Source: Prochlorococcus sp. AG-436-M02 (GTDB taxonomy: Bacteria; Cyanobacteriota; Cyanobacteriia; PCC-6307; Cyanobiaceae). From it: a DNA stretch of 64,000 nucleotides. Where the stretch lies: contig QCPL01000003.1 of the NCBI GenBank assembly GCA_003212515.1, forward strand, positions 1 to 64,000, written 5' to 3'. Positions 34,795 to 39,714 of the stretch are shown one piece after another. Made by a program: the position numbers and the translations under genes. The first letter of the stretch is position 1; every line of letters begins with the position of its first letter. Below the pieces are notes generated by a model. That model was not told the origin of the DNA. It worked only from the letters and a program-made list of their open reading frames with translations, and did not search any database.

Positions 34795-36063
34795 TTATTT
34801 ACTATTCATAAAATCTAAAATCCTTTTAGCCAAAGCTTCGCTACCTCCAGAATAACCCATACGCTTTTTCCCTATCAAAGATAAGCGATCCCTGAAACTA
34901 GAATCTAAGAGTAATAACTCAACTGTTTTAGCTAAGTGAACAAAATTTCTACAAGGAATTACACTGCCGCCTAATAATCGACTTTGTCTGATTGCAAATC
35001 CATATTTAAATTGGGGGCCTTTCCCAGGCAATGAAACGCAAGGTACTCCTAGACCTACCAGTTGTTCAGTAGCTGTTCCAGCATTGGCAACACCAATTTC
35101 TACAAATCTCGACCAATCCTCAAATTTCCCAACTCCAATAACAAGTCTCAAATCATTCTTTTCAAACACACTATCTGATTTGATTTCAAGTATTGAAGAT
35201 TGGATTTTTATAAAACCTTTTTCAATTAAGACATCCTCAACTAACCTTAAAGAAGGCTCAGAGCCGATCGCAACAAAAACAATTAAAGAAGTCTGACTTT
35301 CAATATATTCAACAGCATTAAGTAATCGTTTGAAATTTGTCATAGCCTCAGGCATCCGACTTCCACAAAGCAAGATCAAGCGACGATAATTTTTTAAATT
35401 CATAGGTTGAAAAACTGGCTTAAATCCATCCATCATTGGATTGCCCGGAGCGATGACTCTTACATTTTTTTTTCGTAAACCTCTAGCAGTTAATTTATCT
35501 CTGACTGCAACGATCTTGCATCTCAATGCTTTCATCAAACTCCATTCCCAAGGTTCCCATTCAGTGCCTTTTAATGAATGATAATAATCACTCAATGAGC
35601 AGGTCCTAGGGTGAAACCATGTGTAATCACTTTTTGGAGTACCAACAAATGCATAGTTTCCTCCACTACTCCATGCGAAAAAAAGTGGGAGCAAGTCACC
35701 TACAGCCACAATGAAGCTTCCATTCTTTGCAGCACTACGAACACACAACCAGTTTTTCCAATTTACCCATAAGACACCTGCCAAAATATCTTGAATAAAA
35801 CCACTTATGCTTTGATTACTAAACCCTCCGCTTGGCAATCGCAGTGAGGTTCCAGCTTTGCTCAACCATAATTTCTTAATTCCATCCGAAAAGACTCTAC
35901 CCTCTCCCACTAAAGAAATTACTTGCAAGTCCAAATCAGGTTTCAAACTATGCAAAGCTTCCAATATTCTTAAAGCAATCAAATCTTCACCATGACCATT
36001 CGAAAGCACTAAAACATTTTTATTCTTTGGACTGATACGATCCAAAGGGGAAACATTTTCCAC
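34795..36063 (-). CDS. lipid-A-disaccharide synthase-related protein
   Basis: A protein of about 422 residues related to LpxB/GT-B glycosyltransferases, of unproven substrate. It opens with KNVLVLSNGHGEDLIALRIL and ends with a nucleotide-sugar-binding type region (GVANAGTATEQLVGLGVPCVSLPGKGPQ). The frame is open further upstream, but that part is antisense to tRNA-Cys at 36070-36140 and cannot be trusted. I place the start at GTG 36061-36063, with TTG 36045 as an alternative. No strong ribosome binding site is visible before either. Confidence 0.75.
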   Translation of the reverse strand: MENVSPLDRISPKNKNVLVLSNGHGEDLIALRILEALHSLKPDLDLQVISLVGEGRVFSDGIKKLWLSKAGTSLRLPSGGFSNQSISGFIQDILAGVLWVNWKNWLCVRSAAKNGSFIVAVGDLLPLFFAWSSGGNYAFVGTPKSDYTWFHPRTCSLSDYYHSLKGTEWEPWEWSLMKALRCKIVAVRDKLTARGLRKKNVRVIAPGNPMMDGFKPVFQPMNLKNYRRLILLCGSRMPEAMTNFKRLLNAVEYIESQTSLIVFVAIGSEPSLRLVEDVLIEKGFIKIQSSILEIKSDSVFEKNDLRLVIGVGKFEDWSRFVEIGVANAGTATEQLVGLGVPCVSLPGKGPQFKYGFAIRQSRLLGGSVIPCRNFVHLAKTVELLLLDSSFRDRLSLIGKKRMGYSGGSEALAKRILDFMNSK

Positions 36064-36069
36064 TCTCTG

Positions 36070-36140
36070 GGCGGCATGGCCAAGCGGTAAGGCAGAGGAT
36101 TGCAAATCCTTTATCCCCAGTTCGAATCTGGGTGCCGCCT
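36070..36140 (+). tRNA. trnC: tRNA-Cys(GCA)
   Basis: A 71-nt cloverleaf. The acceptor GGCGGCA pairs with TGCCGCC and the discriminator is T, the tRNA-Cys identity base. The anticodon stem GAGGA/TCCTT holds loop TTGCAAA, with anticodon GCA at 36102-36104. The T arm is CCCCAGTTCGAATCTGGG. It lies antisense to a spurious upstream extension of the LpxB-related frame. It is the last plus-strand RNA before the gene-poor region. Confidence 0.97.
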
Positions 36141-36737
36141 TCTTACCTTTCCTGATAATCAGTAACAGGAACTCAATTATTTGATCTCTTTTTCTAATTC
36201 TTTTTGACATACAAGGGGATAGTCCAGCACTAGAACCATCTGCATCTTTTTAGTATGCCGTCTGTCTGCCACAAAGTCATTACCTGCGCTATGGCTTATT
36301 CAGATATAAACGAGACTTGCGTTTCTTATGCGTTCCACATCCATTATTTCTGACAAGAAAGTTTTTAGTGAGTTATCGCAAGACTTGTAAACCTTAACTT
36401 GCCATGCTCATTAAATGACAAGAAGCAGATAGATAATAGTAAGAATTAGCTCTTTACTTCGAACAACGATTAAAAGCTAAGATAAATTAATGCCGTATTT
36501 TTTAAGTATAAGCGGAACAATACTTACTTATATCTACTCAAAAAAGTTATTGCAGCGGGAAAAAAGAGCACAATTAGATCCTCTTCAATTTTGATTAAGT
36601 TGATTAGAGTTTTAAAAAATTCTTGAGTCTTTTCTCAACCACAGCTAGCTCAAACACCATCAAAAGTCAGTCATTCAGAAATTCTTAGCTTCCAGAACTA
36701 CACATCACAAAATGATTTGAAATGCCATTGACAGTTA
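36141..36737. other. gene-poor intergenic stretch after tRNA-Cys
   Basis: About 600 bases without a convincing gene. The best candidate is a 34-codon plus-strand ORF at 36490-36594 (MPYFLSISGT... to ...LDPLQF) with a hydrophobic start and a basic middle. Its ribosome binding site is weak and I would not annotate it as a gene. A second 32-codon frame at 36255-36353 looks random. No RNA family or mobile-element end is recognised. Confidence 0.4.
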
Positions 36738-36785
36738 TATAATTAGGAAAATCAACATTTACAGAGTGCGTGAGTAAATATATTA

Positions 36786-36920
36786 TTGAGATTTCTTTTT
36801 AGTACAACGATAGTGCTGCAACCTATTGCTTTGATTATGAGAGTATTTGGTTATGATCCTCTCAGAAAAAACAATGTAAAGAAATTACTTACCGAGAGAA
36901 CAGAAAGAATCAAAAGATAG
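36786..36920 (+). CDS. candidate 44-residue membrane peptide
   Basis: A short frame from TTG 36786 to TAG 36918-36920. One hydrophobic helix (RFLFSTTIVLQPIALIMRVF, residues 2-21) is followed by GYDPLRKNN and a basic, helical tail. A TATAAT box at 36738-36743 sits about 45 bases upstream, and a perfect terminator hairpin begins inside the last codons. Together these define a transcript of about 200 nt. No strong ribosome binding site is seen, and an internal ATG at 36837 would give 27 residues. Family unknown. Confidence 0.4.
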   Translation: MRFLFSTTIVLQPIALIMRVFGYDPLRKNNVKKLLTERTERIKR

Positions 36921-36952
36921 ATTTAGAGAGAATTTTCTAAATCTATCTTTTG
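36911..36952 (+). terminator. strong intrinsic terminator
   Basis: A perfect 17-bp inverted repeat: CAAAAGATAGATTTAGA at 36911-36927 and its exact complement at 36936-36952, with an eight-base loop and TTTT after. It ends the short transcript that would carry the 44-codon ORF. The stem is AT-rich but unusually long, and the flanking A and T runs allow it to act in both directions. Confidence 0.75.
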
Positions 36953-37169
36953 TTTTCATAGTAGTAAGATTGCTAGCATTAATTTTCATTAGAACCCTCA
37001 TAAAGTCTTTTCATAAATATTATTATCTATATACAATAAGTTGAAATAGTTAAATATTCTATTTATTCCTAAAAGTTTATATGAATGTAGCCCTTATTGA
37101 TGGAAAAATATCCTAAATCAAGAGAATATATAAACGCAATCTTTTTCAAGTTCGCTGATAGCTTTTTTC
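36953..37169. other. AT-rich spacer without recognised feature
   Basis: A spacer between the 17-bp terminator and the end of the Yfr1-like RNA. Stop codons interrupt all frames. The longest starts give only about a dozen codons (for example ATG 37081). No repeat or conserved RNA element was noticed. Confidence 0.4.
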
Positions 37170-37230
37170 AAAAAAAAGAGCGCCCTCAACGAGCAGCGCT
37201 CCAATGGACAAATATGTGAGGAGTGTCCAA
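37170..37230 (-). ncRNA. yfr1: Yfr1-like small RNA
   Basis: A compact minus-strand RNA of about 61 nt. A TATAAT -10 box at 37236-37241 lies six bases before the predicted 5' end. The 5' part folds as TGGACA/TGTCCA (37224-37229 with 37205-37210) around the 13-base loop CTCCTCACATATT. ACTCCTCACAT (37214-37224) matches 10 of the 11 bases of the Yfr1 core ACTCCTCACAC. The 3' end is a terminator stem, GAGCGC/GCGCTC (37178-37183 with 37196-37201), followed by eight U. Yfr1 is a cyanobacterial sRNA reported to bind porin (som) mRNAs. I infer the family from motif, size and architecture. Confidence 0.75.
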
Positions 37231-37539
37231 TTATCATTATATAGCAAGAAAACCTGATTTCTTATATCTCACAGAAAATACGATCCCAGGAATAGCTTCG
37301 AAAATAAGATTCGCTTGAAAAAGCCAGCTCTAACAAAAATTTCTAGTCAATGCAGAAAGCTAAAAAGCTTTTTATTAAGGTCATGTCTTCATAAAAATAA
37401 AGCCTGACAAAATACGAGGAGCCAGTTTGATGCTCCCAAAAACGGTTTAACTCAAGATGAACTCAGACTTCTAAATTGTTAAGATGTTTACCATTATATA
37501 AAAGACCCTATATAGTCTTAAAAAAAATTAGTCAATTTC
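37231..37539. other. upstream region between Yfr1-like promoter and small ORF
   Basis: Holds the Yfr1-like promoter on the minus strand. On the plus strand there is a small hairpin AAAGCT/AGCTTT (37356-37361 with 37366-37371) followed by TTTTATT, which could be a weak terminator. A GGAGC/GCTCC hairpin follows near 37418-37436. The TATATA-rich stretch at 37495-37516 may be the promoter of the 43-codon ORF that follows. No coding frame is convincing. Confidence 0.4.
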
Positions 37540-37917: not shown

Positions 37918-38526
37918 TTAATCAGTTATTAAAACTGAGGAAGTGATATTTGATGATGGTAAGTCAACAATTTTTAAAGGTGGTGAATTATCCTTAGGGG
38001 CTTCAGGAGGGGGACTATTTTTAGCTTCTTCTTCTTTTGCACAGGCCTCTAATGCCTCTCTTAATAATGAATCAAATGTTGCACCAGGTAATCGATGACG
38101 AGCAACTTCAAGAAATGTTCTAGGTAAAGACTCTGTTGCTGCATCTTTTAAAGCAGGATTATTTCTTCTATGCTCTTGCTCACCTTCTATTGCTCGAATA
38201 AACCTCAAAGTCACCTCATGCTTGGTAGAGGCTTTGATTAAAGTGTCATTATCCTTATTAGTAGTATCACCCTCTAAATCTGTAATTCTTCTTTCGAGGC
38301 TAGTTAGCACCTCTTCTGCTTCTTTAGAAATGTGAGACAATTGTCCATCTGAAAGATTTGGCAAATCTGCAACATAGACCTTGCCATGATCTCTAAGAGT
38401 AAGAAATGTTGGTCTAGGTCCTTGCCTACTATCCAACAAAGAGCCATTTCCCAAAGGTCTTTTAGGAGGTACTGGACCGGCCGAACTACGCCTTCGAGTT
38501 ACTCTTGGTTGATTTTCAGGTGACAT
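37918..38526 (-). CDS. conserved hypothetical protein with disordered ends
   Basis: About 202 residues from ATG 38524-38526 (MSPENQPRVTRRR). Another ATG lies four codons upstream. The first 50 residues are basic and Pro/Gly-rich. The middle (DHGKVYVADLPNLSDGQLSHISKEAEEVL) is followed by a helical, probably coiled-coil part, then EVARHRLPGATFDSLLREALEACAKEEE. The tail is acidic and Pro-rich. No transmembrane helix. I do not recognise the function. It is followed by the Cys-rich 51-residue gene. Confidence 0.7.
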   Translation of the reverse strand: MSPENQPRVTRRRSSAGPVPPKRPLGNGSLLDSRQGPRPTFLTLRDHGKVYVADLPNLSDGQLSHISKEAEEVLTSLERRITDLEGDTTNKDNDTLIKASTKHEVTLRFIRAIEGEQEHRRNNPALKDAATESLPRTFLEVARHRLPGATFDSLLREALEACAKEEEAKNSPPPEAPKDNSPPLKIVDLPSSNITSSVLITD

Positions 38527-38676
38527 TGAATAATTCAAAATCTAATTTCACAGCTTCCGAAATAATATTCGGCTTGCATCATGAGAATTTTAGTATCCAC
38601 CATCATTAACTTTAGGTCAAGTAGCATTCTTTATTTGACTAAGCAAATTTAAGTTATACAGAATTGAGAATTTCAT

Positions 38677-39714
38677 CTAAACAGGAAGTCCAATTATACT
38701 GGTCTGCAAATCTGCAGTTTCATCTTCAATCTGACCAATCTTCCAAGCATCGCACGAATTAGTATGACAAATATCTAAAACATTTCTAGAATCTTCTGCC
38801 GAAACAACAATACAAAATCCAATGCCAAGATTAAAGGTATTCCATAAATCAGTTTCAGGGATATCGCCTTCCTGCCTTAACCAATTGTAAATAAGAGGCT
38901 TTTCCCAAGAGCTTATATCAATAGAAGCCCTTAAACCATTAGGCAAACACCTTGGTAAATTCTCAGGTAATCCACCACCAGTTATATGAGCCATACCTTT
39001 AAGAGCTATTTTTTCATGAAGCAAAGCTTGCACTAAATTGACATATAACTTTGTTGGCTTTAGTAAAAAATCCAACAGCGGCGTTTTCTCACTACCAAAA
39101 CAAGTATCCATATCTACGTTTTTCAATTCAATGACCTTTCGAATCAAACTAAAACCATTGCTATGAATTCCACTGCTTTCAATTCCAATAATGTGATCTC
39201 CTGGTTTAATTCTCTTTCCATCAATAATATCTTTTTCATCAACTACAGCGACACAAAATCCTGCTAAGTCATATTGACCGTCAGTATAAAAGCCTGGCAT
39301 CTCGGCAGTTTCTCCTCCTAATAAAGAACAATGAGATTGCTTGCAACCATGTGCAATACCTTCAATGACTTCAGTTAAAGCGTCTGGTCCTAATTTTCCC
39401 GTAGCAATGTAATCAAGAAAAAAAAGTGGCTCTGCACCACTTGTAATTACATCATTCACACACATAGCCACTAAATCTATCCCTACTCCATAATGAGATT
39501 TATACTTTTGAGCTAATTCAAGTTTTGTGCCTACTCCATCGGTACCTGACACCAAAACTGGATTAGTTAAACCCTTTGGTAATCTCATAAATCCACCGAA
39601 ACCCCCTAGCTCACCAATAACTTCAGGTCGCGAAGTTGATTCCACCGACGACTTTATTCGTTCAACGAAGGCCCGGCCTGCTTCAACATTTACTCCGGAC
39701 GACTTGTAATCCAT
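38677..39714 (-). CDS. purM: phosphoribosylformylglycinamidine cyclo-ligase (AIR synthetase)
   Basis: PurM closes the imidazole ring in purine synthesis using ATP. The 345-residue product has [40 protein letters not shown] and [14 protein letters not shown], the family's nucleotide- and metal-binding blocks. Start ATG at 39714 ([13 protein letters not shown]). It diverges from panC-cmk, with about 140 bases between. No sign of a purine riboswitch. Confidence 0.97.

Follow-up and report, generated by a model that had tools for sequence, protein, structure and literature searches.

The minus strand of the window (the whole 64,000-nucleotide stretch of DNA that was analysed) carries at positions 37247-37170 a short element containing the core motif of the small RNA Yfr1, and the question raised by this locus is whether it encodes a small RNA and, if so, of which family. 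In Yfr1 the motif is single-stranded between two stems, and the gene lies mostly at guaB-trxA (PMC2190773). A sequence-only reading had taken the element for a divergent or relocated Yfr1, on the premise that Yfr1 normally lies between guaB and trxA and is missing from some low-light Prochlorococcus; both statements agree with PMC2190773, which gives SS120 and MIT9211 as strains without it. The Yfr1 motif is also carried by the RNAs Yfr10, Yfr12 and Yfr18 (PMC6778093, PMC2518516), and in Yfr10 it is placed in a loop atop a stem (PMC6778093).

By direct reading of the minus strand from 5′ to 3′, TTGCTATATAAT is followed, after a gap of 6 bases, by TTGGACACTCCTCACATATTTGTCCATTGGAGCGCTGCTCGTTGAGGGCGCTCTTTTTTTT, and the TATAAT box, the 6-bp hairpin with the motif and the eight-U terminator described in the sequence-only reading were all borne out. 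The TATAAT hexamer (37241-37236) is part of a longer promoter-like box, TTGCTATATAAT (37236..37247, minus strand), of the extended -10 type with no clear -35 element, and the box was absent from the list of a generic sigma-70 scan because no -35 hexamer was found. The box is kept in the 12 orthologues described below, with the consensus TTGSTATANANT in most of them, and the sequence upstream of it is not conserved. With its start placed from the -10 box and its end from the U run, the predicted Yfr10-type sRNA has a length of about 61 nt (37170..37230, minus strand).

Fold prediction and the pairs of homologues place a hairpin, UGGACA-CUCCUCACAUAUU-UGUCCA, at 37205..37229 (minus strand), in which the arms UGGACA (37229-37224) and UGUCCA (37210-37205) form the 6-bp stem and 37223-37211 the 13-nt loop. 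The core motif ACTCCTCACAT (37214..37224, minus strand), identified from the sequence, has T in place of C at position 11; 10 of its 11 bases are in the loop and its first A closes the stem. Predicted unpaired probabilities were 0.98-1.00 for motif bases 2-11 and 0.19 for the first A, so that the earlier placement of the motif in the loop holds for bases 2-11 and fails for the first A. An intrinsic terminator (37170..37202, minus strand), supported by sequence, fold and covariation, consists of the GGAGCGCUGCUCGUUGAGGGCGCUC hairpin, whose stem begins at 37202, and then eight U (T at 37177-37170). The fold energy of 37230-37171 was -20.5 kcal/mol (z = -3.1 against dinucleotide shuffles), and no open frame of more than 47 codons runs across the motif. 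Judged by its sequence, the minus-strand element is a real gene for an sRNA that bears the core motif of Yfr1, and it is predicted to be transcribed.

Support for the two hairpins was obtained from 46 homologues, in which the motif-stem pair beside the outermost one was G-C in 29, C-G in 16, G-U in one and broken in none, and two pairs of the terminator stem (columns 35-58 and 36-57 of alignment A2) covary with no broken cell; the covarying pairs were left free by the search pattern, which fixed the inner pairs GACA/TGTC. The covariation score was 0.192, against 0.088 ± 0.008 in shuffles, and none of 500 shuffles reached 0.192. A strict motif-stem-terminator pattern matched 42 loci in 84,980 species genomes, all 42 in Prochlorococcus, and the same pattern gave no copies in the viral collection. 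A covariance model built from 46 sequences (R1) gave matches, often in several copies per genome, in 49 of the 121 genomes and 32 of the 59 genera of the family; the lowest-scoring of them, at around 23-28 bits, may represent other RNAs of the loop type or chance hits. As the comparison of sequences indicates, the window element is better than a chance match, with its orthologues, its conservation peak and the restriction of the pattern loci to Prochlorococcus. A fortuitous resemblance from which no RNA is made would fit an Rfam score below the cut-off, but conservation, synteny and covariation stand against it, and it is scarcely conceivable.

With a 181-base query, similar elements were found in 13 of the 14 genomes of the genus, which is the low-light genus containing SS120, and in 12 of the 14 the orthologue lies in the same neighbourhood; as to the two others, the 206-aa gene is not assembled in G008, and G003 gave a partial match only. 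The sequence-only reading had pointed to synteny around the lpxB-related gene and purM, and this neighbourhood did prove common to the 12, in the order tRNA-Cys with the lpxB-like gene, sRNA, 206-aa gene, purM, and panC/cmk. In the window, tRNA-Cys (36070..36140, plus strand; anticodon GCA, read from the sequence) faces the sRNA with its 3′ end, the 206-aa gene (37918..38538, minus strand; no predicted function and no Pfam match) is the upstream neighbour of the sRNA, as in all orthologous loci, and purM (38677..39714, minus strand) is the next gene. The purM-side location recurs in three or more other genera (G028, G074 and G016 among them), and this locus is ancestral. Its position is shared by the 12 genomes and by some other genera, so there has been no relocation in this strain.

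Some features of the tRNA-Cys side were noted separately. The lpxB-like gene, in its longest frame (34795-36210), starts upstream of tRNA-Cys and antisense to it, so that the true start is probably further in. The spacer that separates the sRNA from the 3′ end of tRNA-Cys (36141-37169 in the window) ranges from 99 to 5155 bases among the 12 loci, and in two genomes it contains inserted long ORFs. It has the look of an insertion site linked to the tRNA; a search of this spacer gave no duplicate of the tRNA 3′ end. A 19-bp inverted repeat, CAAAAGATAGATTTAGA..., at 36911-36952 of the window is terminator-like on both strands.

Among the 12 orthologues, mean column identity is about 0.7-0.97 over 37252-37183 and mostly 0.1-0.5 in the flanks, the conservation peak being centred on the promoter and the sRNA; an isolated conserved block with identity up to 0.76 lies near 37490-37520. 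These data bear on the reading of the element as no separate RNA but the terminator-bearing 3′ untranslated part of a purM/206-aa transcript, from which a short RNA is perhaps processed. Both upstream genes, the 206-aa gene and purM, are on the same strand as the sRNA, and the MED4 Yfr10 has also been found in a longer precursor common to Yfr2 (PMC2518516). However, the conserved promoter-like box is at the right distance from the predicted RNA start, the sequence between the box and the 206-aa gene is mostly poorly conserved, and the gap from that gene to the sRNA is about 690 bases; we give a processed 3′ end only a slim chance and prefer an sRNA gene with its own promoter.

Most orthologues have the full 11/11 motif, against 10/11 in the window copy. 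Position 11 is C in 10 of the 12 orthologues, T in one (the window copy) and G in one, and T is common at this position among paralogues. The changed last core base stressed by the sequence-only reading is thus present, but it is a minor variant rather than a sign of divergence.

The core ACUCCUCACA motif and the form of a short RNA ending in a terminator are common to the window RNA and Yfr1, and the length predicted for the window RNA, about 61 nt, would be similar to that of Yfr1 (54-69 nt). In Yfr1, ACUCCUCACAC is unpaired between two stem-loops and the gene lies at guaB-trxA in most, but not all, cyanobacteria, whereas the window motif, with T as its last base, is held within the loop of hairpin 1, and the window RNA lies between tRNA-Cys/lpxB-like and 206-aa/purM. 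The Yfr1 motif was found in the guaB3-trxA spacer of none of the 10 genomes of the genus with this spacer assembled, one mismatch in the nine core bases being allowed; the window's own genome (82.8% complete), in which guaB3 is not assembled, is outside these 10. The guaB-trxA yfr1 thus seems to have been lost in the genus containing SS120.

The shared core motif, the similar predicted length and the guaB-trxA spacer lacking the motif would fit a true Yfr1 that moved to the purM locus and changed its structure. Against such a move, the motif is in a loop and not between two stems, a single genome can have close paralogues together, there is a copy at this locus in other genera of the family too, and similar loop-type copies occur at several non-orthologous places. 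A relocated Yfr1 was rejected on structure and genus-wide synteny and is highly improbable, and the label of a divergent Yfr1 fails as well, the motif being in the loop as published for Yfr10. The element is better described as a Yfr10-type RNA.

The incomplete genome of the window (G000) has five ACTCCTCACAY sites, namely the window copy, two on C7, one on C6 and one on C24, and there is no canonical yfr1 among them. The other four were considered as candidates and set aside, those on C7 being hairpin-loop copies around Yfr2 and those on C6 and C24 long hairpins. One C7 paralogue is 90% identical to the window RNA over 59 bases and lies directly upstream of a Yfr2 gene. That stretch of C7 (L104:5980-6380), near guaA, holds the Yfr10-type copy, Yfr2 (Cyano-1) and a second loop-type motif RNA within about 400 bases, the terminator of the second RNA being unlike that of the Yfr10-type copy. 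The long hairpins on C6 (L105:5890-6090) and C24 (L106:2260-2340) have a TATCAGAGCC/GGTTCTGATA type stem with the motif in the loop and no U-rich terminator; on C6 a Yfr2-like gene of the other strand points towards the hairpin, and the two would converge. Near another Yfr10-type/Yfr2 pair, in G013, a glutamine-II riboswitch match of 34.3 bits, just above the cut-off, was recorded (L102:8107-8170). The purM-locus RNA and its paralogues are the only motif carriers found in the genus.

Among all Rfam families, Yfr10 (RF02362) gave the best match to the window RNA, aligned over its full length with 25.9 bits against a cut-off of 43. The sequence-only reading had proposed a covariance check for Yfr1; the score is indeed below the cut-off, but the relevant model is that of Yfr10. 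RF02362 passes its cut-off in only 1 of 40 genomes of relatives, so the failure of the window RNA may reflect the model more than the RNA. Given the Yfr10 arrangement together with a best match that is yet below the cut-off, the window RNA is classed as Yfr10-type following the usage of the published work and is not a member of RF02362 by score.

The window RNA resembles the MED4 Yfr10 (with Yfr12 and Yfr18; RF02362) in several respects: its first hairpin carries the core motif in its loop and is followed by an intrinsic terminator, it is complementary to Yfr2 5′ ends, and a close paralogue lies directly upstream of Yfr2 in its own genome. The Rfam Yfr10 model differs in its stem of 8 pairs, against 5-6 bp with a 13-nt loop in the window type, and in its length of 78 nt, against about 61 nt predicted here. 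In high-light strains Yfr10, Yfr12 and Yfr18 adjoin genes of the Yfr2 family and are otherwise poorly conserved in sequence and place (PMC6778093, PMC2518516). High-light Yfr10 is upstream of Yfr2, a position that is stated for high-light strains only and so is not defining for low-light ones, whereas the window copy is at a fixed purM/tRNA-Cys place away from Yfr2. No match to Cyano-1 (the Yfr2 family) was found within the 64-kb window.

Within the genus, the G002 assembly consists of one contig of 1,751,080 bases. We take it to be the SS120 genome. In it, ACTCCTCACAC occurs twice, once inside a 1073-codon frame and once at the purM/lpxB-like locus, and the orthologue at this locus (bases 1,596,005-1,596,064, minus strand) gave no match to RF02362 even at E 1. 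Two occurrences of the Yfr1 motif have been stated for SS120 (PMC2190773), and Yfr10 RNA was detected experimentally in this strain according to the text of PMC6778093, which refers to its Fig. S6 (Lambrecht 2019). Because the purM/lpxB-like locus holds the only non-coding motif copy there and Yfr10 was, by that text, detected in SS120, the Yfr10 described from that strain very probably comes from this orthologue of the window RNA. The window copy is 88% identical to the orthologue over 83 bases and differs from it at motif position 11, where it has T and the orthologue C.

A likely partner is the Yfr2 family (Cyano-1, RF01701), which has another structure and is complementary to the window RNA through UGUGAGGAGU. 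Three Yfr2-like genes in the window's genome carry UUGUGAGGAGUUG near the 5′ end, each giving 10 contiguous pairs with the loop (UGUGAGGAGU). The predicted binding to the three RNAs was -10 to -11 kcal/mol and fell to about -1 kcal/mol with a UCCU-to-UGGU change; in MED4, the UGGU change abolished binding to ppa mRNA (PMC6778093). Motif position 11 faces U in Yfr2 and is unpaired either way, C or T shifting the predicted binding by less than 1 kcal/mol. The perfect complement TGTGAGGAG occurs at 12 sites of the genome, namely the five motif copies, the three Yfr2-like genes and four others; these four had no convincing ribosome-binding context, and this perfect-match search of the genome gave no convincing mRNA target.

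Most likely, the RNA acts through its loop, by antisense pairing with Yfr2 and mRNAs. A transcript of about 60 nt would be made from its own promoter and end at the intrinsic terminator, and its first hairpin would offer CUCCUCACA as an open loop. The loop would pair with GUGAGGAG-type sites, which the cell's own Yfr2 sRNAs have at their 5′ ends, and, by analogy with Yfr1 and Yfr10 of MED4, with sites in mRNAs that lie close to the ribosome-binding region or inside the coding sequence; the window RNA may thus modulate metabolic mRNAs, with Yfr2 titrating it. Its transcription, its binding to Yfr2 in the cell and its control of mRNAs would follow the MED4 example. A different view of its function, though not of its identity, is that it solely titrates Yfr2 and has no mRNA targets of its own. 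The ten contiguous pairs to Yfr2, the few other perfect sites in the genome and the finding that Yfr2 outcompetes ppa mRNA in MED4 (PMC6778093) are in line with pure titration; the enrichment of peaks of 253 mRNAs with a MED4 Yfr10 bait (PMC6778093) speaks against it, and we regard it as rather improbable. We are highly confident that the window encodes a Yfr10-type sRNA gene of the low-light genus containing SS120, orthologous to the SS120 locus, which has its own promoter and would act by loop pairing with Yfr2 and mRNAs.

Yfr10 as a kind of RNA is known; what is added is a further strongly conserved Yfr10-type gene and its assignment to Yfr10 rather than Yfr1. Yfr10 synteny is otherwise described as not conserved (PMC6778093), whereas here a Yfr10-type RNA has a stable conserved locus in a low-light genus that seems to be without Yfr1. 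The Rfam Yfr10 model misses most Yfr10-type RNAs of the purM-locus kind, and an alignment and a covariance model are now available for finding them. RNAs of the window type may have replaced Yfr1. On a bolder reading, which we hold less likely than not, the loss of Yfr1 in this genus was compensated by the fixed purM-locus loop-type sRNA, similar copies of which number as many as about five in a genome; a constitutive regulator whose motif is single-stranded would then have given way to a differently structured one titrated by Yfr2. The genus of SS120 thus provides a simple setting in which to ask whether Yfr10 replaces Yfr1.
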